64,000 bases of DNA from Saprospiraceae bacterium (lineage in GTDB: Bacteria > Bacteroidota > Bacteroidia > Chitinophagales > Saprospiraceae): positions 1 to 64,000 of the forward strand of contig JAHDDE010000012.1 of NCBI GenBank assembly GCA_020629515.1, read 5' to 3'. This document shows, piece by piece, positions 11,259-13,219 of the stretch. How positions within the stretch are numbered: the stretch's first letter is position 1; the number at the start of each line of letters is the position of its first letter. The notes under the pieces were generated by a model. That model did not search any database, was not told the origin of the DNA, and was given only the letters and a program-made list of their open reading frames with translations. The position numbers and the translations under genes are program-made.

Positions 11259-11298
11259 AGTATGGGAATGTCTTAAATAAAATCTGAAAAATAAAAAA

Positions 11299-11390
11299 GT
11301 GAGGAATCACACCAAACTGCTACGACCTCATACCCTTGCTGCGTTTCCACCCTGGGGGATTCTGAGGGAGCGAGCTGTATGACCCTCACC
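11299..11390 (-). ncRNA. ffs: Signal recognition particle RNA, small bacterial type
   Basis: On the minus strand a roughly 92-nt hairpin is closed by GUGAGG pairing with CCUCAC at its two ends. The apical part carries the conserved SRP domain IV signature CCCAGGGUGGAAACGCAGCA with a GAAA-type tetraloop and the asymmetric loop that binds Ffh. A run of six T follows the 3' end on the minus strand. A TATTTTTG -7 element lies 6 bases before the predicted 5' end. Together this is convincing for SRP RNA. Confidence 0.85.
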
Positions 11391-11395
11391 GGCCG

Positions 11396-11403
11396 CAAAA
11401 ATA
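11396..11403 (-). promoter_or_regulatory. -7 element (TATTTTTG) of the SRP RNA
   Basis: Minus-strand TATTTTTGCGGCC matches the Bacteroidota TAnnTTTG -7 consensus and is positioned to start transcription at the first base of the SRP helix. The same 13-base string occurs before hemE. Confidence 0.6.
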
Positions 11404-11421: not shown

Positions 11422-12108
11422 TCAAATGCTATGCAACAAACTTTTATATGAATTCCATCCTATATTATTTTGAGGCAAACAATTCACTCTTAGATTTGTC
11501 TTCTTTACAGGATGGATAAATCCGAGGCTATAACAATGAAGCGCTATGGCTTTTTTATTTTGCCACTTTATGCCACCATATTTAACGTCCCCAATTATTG
11601 GGCAACCTAATGAATTTAATTGAACTCGAATTTGGTGAGACCGCCCAGTTAGAGGTTTTATGCTAAACAAGCAAACTCTTTCTGAGGATAATACTTCATA
11701 AGACAGTTTAGCCCATTTAGAACCCTTATGTGCCTCATTTGTTGATTTAGAAATATTAAGAGATGAGTCTTTAAAAATATAAGATTCAATAATTCCCGAA
11801 TTTGACTGTGGGAAATGATTACTTAAGGCTATATATTCTTTCTGTACTTTTCTTTCTTTGAACTCTACATGCAGTCTTCCTAAAGCCTTAGAGGTTTTTC
11901 CTAAAATTATACAGCCACTAACTGGTCGATCCAACCTATGAGCAGGTGCCAAAAAAACATTACCTGGCTTACTATATTTATCCTTTATATATGATTTACA
12001 CATATCAAGAATAGTCAAATCTTGCGTCTTATCACTTTGTGTAAGCATTCCAGCAGGCTTATTAACCACTAAAAGATGATTATCTTCATATAATATGCTT
12101 AAATCCAT
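11422..12108 (-). CDS. RluA-family rRNA/tRNA pseudouridine synthase
   Basis: Isomerises specific uridines in structured RNA to pseudouridine. The catalytic aspartate sits in the family motif HRLDRPVSGCIIL near residue 64. The supporting motifs KEYIAL and the RSHQIRVQLNSLGCPIIGDVKYGG block near residue 160 are present. At 228 residues there is no room for an S4 domain, so it belongs with the short RluA/RluC-like single-domain forms; the target position cannot be deduced. It is transcribed away from the gene-free interval that follows. Confidence 0.9.
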   Translation of the reverse strand: MDLSILYEDNHLLVVNKPAGMLTQSDKTQDLTILDMCKSYIKDKYSKPGNVFLAPAHRLDRPVSGCIILGKTSKALGRLHVEFKERKVQKEYIALSNHFPQSNSGIIESYIFKDSSLNISKSTNEAHKGSKWAKLSYEVLSSERVCLFSIKPLTGRSHQIRVQLNSLGCPIIGDVKYGGIKWQNKKAIALHCYSLGFIHPVKKTNLRVNCLPQNNIGWNSYKSLLHSI

Positions 12109-12213
12109 TATGCAAAATTAACTGAATTTCAATTTGATATATATTGTAAAATAAAAATATATCATAAATATCTATTTTATAGCATTTTATATATTACTAT
12201 TTAAAATAATATG

Positions 12214-12221
12214 TATATTTG
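12214..12221 (+). promoter_or_regulatory. -7 element (TATATTTG) of sRNA-like unit 1
   Basis: TATATTTG is an exact TAnnTTTG match 10 bases before the shared 17-nt block. No clear -33 TTG is seen at the expected distance, so promoter strength is uncertain. Confidence 0.45.
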
Positions 12222-12225
12222 TATT

Positions 12226-12293
12226 GTGTAAGTTTTGGTTATTAAATTGTAAAATTCGTTTTGCTCGAGAGAAAGCTCTCGAGCATTTTTTTT
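12226..12293 (+). ncRNA. Candidate small RNA, unit 1 of a tandem pair
   Basis: A predicted transcript of about 65-70 nt. It carries AGTTTTGGTTATTAAAT near its 5' end, then a perfect 10-bp hairpin (TGCTCGAGAG, loop AAAG, CTCTCGAGCA) followed by eight T. The hairpin has a T-run only on the plus side, so it terminates plus-strand transcripts. No gene upstream on this strand needs it. Family unknown; the 5' boundary is an estimate from the -7 element. Confidence 0.5.
12262..12293 (+). terminator. Strong intrinsic terminator of sRNA-like unit 1
   Basis: Ten perfect base pairs, a 4-base loop and eight consecutive T. On the minus strand the hairpin is not followed by T, so it is directional. Confidence 0.85.
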
Positions 12294-12358
12294 ACAATAA
12301 AATTAAGAAGAACATACCTTCAATATTTATGTTACACTTGGCACAAATATTGCATATA

Positions 12359-12366
12359 TAATTTTG
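12359..12366 (+). promoter_or_regulatory. -7 element (TAATTTTG) of sRNA-like unit 2
   Basis: TAATTTTG fits TAnnTTTG, with a TTGGCA 18 bases upstream as a possible -33 element. It directly abuts the shared 17-nt block, unlike unit 1, so the start point of unit 2 would fall inside that block or the element differs. Confidence 0.4.
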
Positions 12367-12424
12367 AGTTTTGGTTATTAAATGATGAGTAGTGCCTATA
12401 TATGCTTTTATAGGCACTTTTTTT
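12367..12424 (+). ncRNA. Candidate small RNA, unit 2 of a tandem pair
   Basis: It repeats the AGTTTTGGTTATTAAAT block of unit 1 exactly, then carries a different 10-bp perfect hairpin (AGTGCCTATA with TATAGGCACT, 8-base loop) and a seven-T run. The hairpin sequences of the two units are unrelated, so only the 5' block and the architecture are shared. This pattern fits duplicated sRNA genes whose 5' block is the functional part, but no known family is recognised. Confidence 0.5.
12391..12424 (+). terminator. Intrinsic terminator of sRNA-like unit 2
   Basis: Ten-bp perfect stem, 8-base loop and T-run on the plus side only. Confidence 0.8.
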
Positions 12425-12442
12425 ATTCCATAATCCAAAATA

Positions 12443-12514: not shown

Positions 12515-13219
12515 CTAACTCAACTGAGCGAAGTCCCTTATTAATATTCTTCTTCTATCTAAACTTATAATGTTAGAACGCTTCAAATCATTCAGAACTG
12601 TAGTGACCGTCTGTCTCGAAGTACCTGTAAAATCTGCGATGTCTTGTTGTGTAAAACTATGCTTAAGCAGTAATTCATTAAAGCCTACTTTATTTCCAAA
12701 AGTCATAGCATTTTCTTTTAAAAAATTTATAACTCTGGTTCTTGCATCTTCAACTATTATAGACTCAAGACGTGAAGAAGTAGATCTTAATTTATTTCCT
12801 ACGATTTCTAAAAAATCAGTAGCTACTGCACCATTCTGCACAAATACTTTTTTCAAGCCTCGGCTTGATATTTTTAGAATTTCCGATTTTTTGTCGAGGA
12901 TTTGAGCTATTGAACTTCTTTGTTTTTCACCACATAGACTTCCCTCTCCAAATATCATGTTAGAATGTACTATTGCCCTTATCACCTCTTTGGCCACAAA
13001 AGAATGTACACTTACCTTAACAATACCTGATAGAACATGAAACACATGCTCACTTGGGTCATTTTTGTGATAAACAATTTCGAATCTGGAACATTTTAGC
13101 AACTCAGTATTCATTGCTAAAAATCTAAGTTCATTTTCATTGGCATTTTTGAGATAATGGATATCGCTTAGTTTATCCATCAATACCGACTGCTTTTCTT
13201 GGTGTAAGTTTGGTGTCAT
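12515..13219 (-). CDS. Crp/Fnr-family transcriptional regulator
   Basis: A 234-residue DNA-binding regulator. Residues 20-135 form a cyclic-nucleotide-binding-type beta barrel (FHVLSGIVKVSV, IFGEGSLCG). Residues 150-230 carry the winged helix with the recognition helix in SFTQQDIADFTGTSRQTVTT. I see no N-terminal cysteine cluster as in Fnr, so no iron-sulphur sensing is indicated. Whether cAMP is bound cannot be judged. An 8-bp inverted repeat lies just before its start codon and may be its own operator. Its 3' end faces the sRNA-like interval. Confidence 0.9.
   Translation of the reverse strand: MTPNLHQEKQSVLMDKLSDIHYLKNANENELRFLAMNTELLKCSRFEIVYHKNDPSEHVFHVLSGIVKVSVHSFVAKEVIRAIVHSNMIFGEGSLCGEKQRSSIAQILDKKSEILKISSRGLKKVFVQNGAVATDFLEIVGNKLRSTSSRLESIIVEDARTRVINFLKENAMTFGNKVGFNELLLKHSFTQQDIADFTGTSRQTVTTVLNDLKRSNIISLDRRRILIRDFAQLS

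Follow-up and report, generated by a model that had tools for sequence, protein, structure and literature searches.

Activated sludge and marine samples commonly contain Saprospiraceae, and a locus in one member of this family raises the question of what two short tandem units with an identical 17-nt block (AGTTTTGGTTATTAAAT) are doing in the gap between a minus-strand gene for a pseudouridine synthase (11422-12108) and a minus-strand gene for a Crp/Fnr-type regulator (12515-13219). In the window, i.e., the whole stretch of 64,000 nucleotides that was analyzed, the block was found as two exact copies (12231-12247 and 12367-12383), and no other match to it was detected there with three mismatches allowed. 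Plus-strand terminator-like hairpins of 10 bp are present at 12262-12285 in the first unit (T1) and at 12391-12418 in the second (T2); terminator-like sites numbered 5 within 1500 bases versus a mean of 0.6 in shuffles. An earlier note on this DNA, made from the letters alone, had described the repeated block, one such terminator per unit and the flanking minus-strand genes, and this description proved accurate. The features assigned to the two units are as follows.

12190..12214, plus strand: inverted-repeat-like element TATATTAC..N9..TAATATGT, 5' of T1; possible transcription-factor site
12214..12221, plus strand: -7 element of the T1 promoter, TATATTTG, of the Bacteroidota type TAnnTTTG (39/39 T1 copies)
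12226..12293, plus strand: putative sRNA T1, ~68 nt, matched by covariance model R1; 5' end predicted from the conserved GTGTAAG start
12231..12247, plus strand: 17-nt shared block of T1 (exact copy), proposed seed, complementary to target leaders
12262..12293, plus strand: intrinsic terminator of T1 (hairpin of 10 bp followed by a U run), from hairpin scan and covariation
12339..12355, plus strand: T2 sigma-54 promoter TGGCACAAATATTGCAT (-24/-12), motif in 66/69 T2 copies
12366..12424, plus strand: putative sRNA T2, ~59 nt, matched by covariance model R2; 5' end predicted from the -12 element
12367..12383, plus strand: 17-nt shared block of T2 (exact copy), proposed seed, predicted to pair with target leaders
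12384..12396, plus strand: T2-specific segment GATGAGTAGTGCC, which would lengthen the pairing with the giant-protein leader
12391..12424, plus strand: intrinsic terminator of T2 (hairpin of 10 bp followed by a U run), from hairpin scan and covariation

The two further congeneric genomes in the set compared keep both units in the same order, and the T1-T2 tandem was found in other genera too. When 298 genomes from the family were searched for the block followed by a T-run, 69 genomes representing 28/112 genera were matched, while the reversed-pattern control gave few matches, at the chance level; in a scan of named genomes, furthermore, 102 stretches were found, and most among the 80 listed were labelled Saprospiraceae or Saprospirales. 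Phage records had no match to the region. The exact-block search showed that 109 of the 118 distinct units (those with an identical 62-nt key being merged) fall into the T1 or T2 type; the nine units outside both types, which were set aside, come for the most part from organisms other than Saprospiraceae and resemble chance matches. With covariance models built from 26 copies each, T2 (model R2) was detected in 70/298 family genomes at E<=1e-5, T1 (model R1) in 55/298 at E<=2.5e-8, and both in 39/298. The two units are conserved across Saprospiraceae.

T1 is laid out as GTGTAAG, the block, TGTAAAATTCG, a spacer and the hairpin, and T2 as GAG, the block, TGAGTAATGCCCG and the hairpin, each with variants; the folds of T1 (68 nt) and T2 (12366-12425) both have a z value of -3.1. 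In the T1 hairpin, all of the 8 counted pairs were paired in 100% of 26 sequences, 5 pairs were changed on both sides, and 31 cells had both-side changes against a shuffle mean of 7.0. Correspondingly, 94.7% of the cells were paired in the 26 sequences of the T2 hairpin, with 6 pairs changed on both sides and 29 cells with both-side changes (shuffle mean, 9.3), and pairing in slid controls was far lower for both hairpins. Loops and stems vary freely while the 5' part is constant, but the invariance of the block in these sets is by selection because the units were collected by the exact block; indeed, model searches, which do not require it, revealed block variants mainly in the 3' half (GGTTAAAGAAT, GGTTAAAAAAT and GGTTAATAAAT). 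From their conservation and the covarying hairpins, T1 and T2 are judged to be non-coding RNA genes conserved in Saprospiraceae. The family had not been recognized in the earlier note, and an Rfam search (gathering scores and E<=5) likewise assigned neither unit to a family, the only matches being SRP RNA, tRNA and chance matches far below the cut-offs. The SRP RNA is a small gene at 11294-11397 on the minus strand (Bacteroidales_small_SRP, 67.9 bits), located between the transaldolase-like and pseudouridine synthase genes.

The promoters of the two units differ. A TAnnTTTG element had been ascribed to each unit, and this holds for T1 but not for T2: the element TAnn[TC]TT[GA] lies within 25 nt 5' of the block in 39/39 T1 copies but occurs in only 2/69 T2 copies, one of which is that of the window. 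The TAnnTTTG-like TAATTTTG at 12359-12366 was thus rejected as a T2 promoter and is regarded as incidental. T2 looks instead to be driven by sigma-54, which the earlier reading had missed; the motif TGGCA[CT]-N5-TTG was present in 66/69 T2 copies (one copy at a contig edge with no upstream DNA being left out) and in 0/39 T1 copies. This -24/-12 promoter, TGGCAC-N5-TTGC, is at a fitting spacing, with its TTG ending 14-24 nt before the block, and reads TGGCACAAATATTGCAT in the window. L089, L090 and L197 are T2 copies without the motif; the former two are from one genus (g3), whose RNA seems to have changed its promoter. Ahead of the -7 element of T1, the consensus of 39 copies reads tACATATT...ATAATATGTT, and a rough pattern for the inverted repeat ACATATT...AATATGT fits 23/39 copies.

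In distant genera, furthermore, T1-like RNAs carry near-perfect sigma-54 promoters (e.g., TTGGCACAGATATTGCA) and often stand in tandem sets of two to four. Such sets of 2-4 near-identical T1-like units were seen in distant genera of the family at L392 (G205:C7), L393 (G126:C24), L394, L400 and L401, nearly all of the units having a sigma-54 promoter. T1 therefore seems to have switched its promoter class, and the simplest history suggested by these sequences would be a sigma-54 ancestor followed by a change of the T1 promoter in the clade of the window.

What, then, could the shared block recognize? Its complement, TTTAATAACCAAAACT, is found immediately 5' of the start codon of a giant protein in 22 of the 30 best matches, including that of the own genome (TAACCAAAACTTTTTAAAATG at C30:30454). 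The protein has about 1400 residues; the three copies studied at full length measure 1351, 1439 and 1409 aa, and each combines a dockerin-like repeat with a type A sorting domain of the T9SS. The mRNA leader runs up to the start as TTTTTTAATAACCAAAACTTTTTCCC-ATG, or nearly so, with ACCAAAA directly before the start in these 22 of the 30 best matches; the 30 come from 29 sRNA-bearing genomes and G014. Among the eight exceptions, the site is degraded in G071 and replaced with AACCCAAAA in G101 and G288, the best matches in G076 and G002 are paralogs, and the start position is ambiguous in G148, G021 and G014; the G002 ortholog (L537) does have ACCAAAA before its start. In a second genome set, ACCAAAA preceded the start in 4/26 matches, all 4 from sRNA-carrying genera, as against 0 of the 22 matches outside sRNA-bearing genera, which are mostly paralogs or have ambiguous starts. 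ACCAAAA was also absent from all 19 leaders of paralogs in the same genome set (20 leaders were examined, of which one is a target ortholog and was counted with the targets; the start of the paralog L525 is ambiguous). Many of the paralogs (L523-L540) share a different leader end, GATCTC-ATG or TATCTC-ATG, perhaps a separate translation-start motif.

When T2 was paired with the giant-protein leader by RNAduplex, only 0-1 of 200 dinucleotide shuffles were as good in 21/21 genomes, and the pairing of T1 was weaker (0-15 of 200 shuffles as good, 14 genomes). In most giant-protein leaders, indeed, the complementarity runs past the block into T2-specific sequence, as in G034, where the leader reads TACTCAATTTATTAACCAAAACT against TTACTCAATTTAATAACCAAAACT in the reverse complement of its T2. 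T2 of the window genus has an insertion, AAATGATGAG, opposite which the leaders have CTCATCATTT (G002) and CTCATACATCATTT (G000), while T2 of the other genera compared has AAATTGAG and several of their leaders have CTCA(A)TTT. With T2 from other genera in place of that of their own genus, leaders of the window genus paired on average 7 kcal/mol more weakly (-23.1 versus -30.1 kcal/mol), whereas leaders of the other genera gave -28.3 with window-genus T2 and -28.1 with their own, and several leaders ranked their own T2 poorly. Because the exchange costs the other leaders nothing, the covariation of seed and leader represents one event in one genus and is not family-wide.

A likely second target, judged from its leader, is an mRNA for a small protein (34-35 aa) that has a single hydrophobic stretch. 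This protein is encoded beside pyrD, was found in 191/298 family genomes at E<=0.05 and matched no Pfam or NCBIfam family. One such gene, L322 (G000:C17:163163-163261, minus strand), and its orthologs have a conserved D.RFW...SYPG and adjoin pyrD and a Crp/Fnr gene. ACCAAAA was present within the last 45 nt of the leader in 31/49 sRNA-bearing versus 5/21 other genomes, where such co-occurrence counts are raw and ignore kinship between genomes, so that the Fisher value (0.004) overstates the case because the genomes are related. The five sRNA-less genomes with the site belong to genera having sRNA-bearing members, and the block in the sense orientation (TTTTGGT) was found in 0/70 leaders of this gene. 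The leader in the window genome has a 7-nt match only. A loose sigma-54-like match lies upstream of the gene in 40/70 cases, as an uncontrolled count.

In genome-wide counts, neither AATAACCAAAA-N-ATG nor TAACCAAAACT-N-ATG was in excess over the reversed pattern, and therefore no large regulon is visible; these patterns served as a source of leads only, and the two recurring leads were tested with further data as above. The own genome has a third exact 15-nt match to the block (C63:16009; L001 1501-1515), which is not followed by a terminator of the T1/T2 kind; it lies antisense, 11 nt 5' of the start codon (ATG) of an HTH-like ORF of 66 aa, and is possibly an extra target or a chance match. 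In G034, three dispersed near-identical copies of TAACCAAAACTCTAGTTCATTAAAAGGTCTTTATG (C13:109159, C14:139162 and C32:288) are probably part of a mobile element.

Taken together, we favor, with a probability of about 0.8, the reading that T1 and T2 are sibling sRNAs with differing promoters and a shared seed that pairs at the ribosome site of mRNAs, probably repressing them. By sequence, the two are separate short genes, each with its own promoter motif and terminator, and the segment they share is complementary to the start regions of orthologous mRNAs under shuffle and paralog controls, as expected of trans-acting siblings. T1 would be transcribed from the TAnnTTTG promoter beside a probable regulator site and T2 from the sigma-54 promoter; since the promoters differ, two signals would feed one shared seed. 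This seed would pair with the mRNA leader a few nucleotides 5' of the start codon, chiefly in the mRNA of the ~1400-aa type IX-secreted surface protein, where T2 could pair over about 20-30 nt, and also in that of the 34-35-aa membrane protein beside pyrD, and pairing at the start region would block ribosome loading and so repress translation. Beyond the observed conservation, structural covariation, promoter motifs and complementarity with its controls, we infer that the units are transcribed, where exactly they end, that they pair in the cell and that they repress rather than activate. Repression is what usually follows from pairing at such a position, and it was found for FopS sRNAs in Bacteroides (PMC11697453).

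Other readings need to be weighed against this one. The block could be the site of an RNA-binding protein, a chaperone like RbpB or Hfq, with the siblings acting as decoys or needing the block for stability and the leader pairing being secondary. Such a role would be consistent with the AU-rich block being mostly unpaired in centroid folds, and has parallels in the decoy function of GlmY for GlmZ (PMC4211561) and in RbpB, which binds the FopS sRNAs of Bacteroides in their 5' part (PMC11697453). It leaves unexplained, however, why the reverse complement of the block, and not the block, stands at orthologous mRNA start codons and why the complementarity passes into T2-specific sequence, and we regard it as improbable. 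Between the two roles that the earlier note had offered for the block, seed or protein-binding site, the leader complementarity thus speaks for the seed, which is how the block is best read from these sequences, while the protein site explains less.

Alternatively, the mRNA sites might represent a leader motif general in Bacteroidota, or else a DNA element, the complementarity to the block being an AT-rich coincidence. The genome-wide counts, which did not exceed their reversed-pattern controls, and some exact 15-nt matches 5' of ATG in distant genomes as well would agree with this; the site is nonetheless missing from all 19 paralog leaders of the same genomes, shuffled leaders almost never match the real T2 pairing, the site in the 34-35-aa leader tracks the presence of the sRNA, and its sense orientation never appears in the 70 leaders, all of which make a coincidence very unlikely. 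Hardly credible at all is that the units are terminators with residual promoters or short-peptide genes and not regulatory RNAs. Plus-strand ORFs of 43-45 aa do overlap the units, but they run through the hairpins, most T1 copies have stops in two of the three frames, and conservation is centred on the promoter, the 5' block and the stem, not on codons. The block-to-element distance, furthermore, takes values of 22 or 23 nt for T1 and of 7, 8 or 10 nt for T2, and a reading frame would not survive such shifts, by as little as 1 nt, in the spacing of conserved elements. Peptide coding was rejected on the basis of these length changes and the stops. The proposal of sibling sRNAs, already made in the earlier note, is accordingly supported by the family-wide conservation, the covarying terminators, the frame-breaking length changes and the complementarity of the block to orthologous mRNA leaders.

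A different and rather doubtful extension is that T2 shares its origin with the giant-protein leader and that the two, as a dedicated pair, have co-evolved since. The leader complement passes the seed into the T2 spacer and, in some genomes, reaches the T2 terminator stem; the sRNA gene might thus have arisen from the leader by inverted duplication, or the leader from the sRNA gene. On this view, an ancestral sigma-54 sRNA family of Saprospiraceae would have split into a copy tied to the surface-protein mRNA and a copy that left sigma-54 for another regulator.

If T1 and T2 are sibling sRNAs, as we prefer, Saprospiraceae gain an sRNA family that is conserved, has a named candidate target and shows a change of promoter class between siblings. 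T1/T2 would offer a way to test how the synthesis of a surface protein is tied to sigma-54 signals, and the mirrored leader is a clean target for compensatory mutations. No paper on sRNAs of Saprospiraceae was found in our literature search; as far as it shows, the kind of regulator is known, while the T1/T2 family, its sigma-54 link and its target have not been described.

Several known systems come close to T1/T2. FopS/GibS of Bacteroides thetaiotaomicron, from the same phylum, is also a multicopy family, in which the translation of cell-surface proteins is repressed through seed pairing close to the mRNA start codon (PMC11697453). FopS, however, was deposited in Rfam according to that paper, uses sigma-ABfr promoters and targets SusC transporters (PMC11697453), whereas T1/T2 have no match in Rfam 15, T2 and the distant T1-like copies have sigma-54 promoters, and the candidate target is a T9SS-sorted giant protein. 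OmrA/OmrB of enterobacteria resemble T1/T2 as tandem siblings with a shared 5' segment, different downstream parts, differing promoters and surface-protein targets; they act with Hfq under EnvZ/OmpR and share nearly identical last 35 nt (PMC4211561), whereas the 3' parts of T1 and T2 differ. The OmrA-B covariance model of Rfam found no match in T1/T2 (gathering scores, E<=5). GlmY/GlmZ and Qrr are at least partly sigma-54-driven and are longer, differently structured RNAs of Gammaproteobacteria. These are sibling sRNAs like T1/T2 (PMC4211561), from which the window units differ in having no Rfam match. Rfp18 of Flavobacterium psychrophilum is likewise a Bacteroidota sRNA tied to exported proteins and an adhesin, but it pairs through its third stem-loop (PMC9723704), while T1 and T2 each have one terminator hairpin. 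In the same bacterium, gliding-adhesin genes are driven by sigma-54 promoters (PMC9723704), and a link between sigma-54 and surface proteins therefore has a precedent in the phylum. Other sibling sRNAs with differential promoters are described as letting separate signals act on shared targets (PMC4211561), as T1 and T2 would do for another regulator and for sigma-54 signals.
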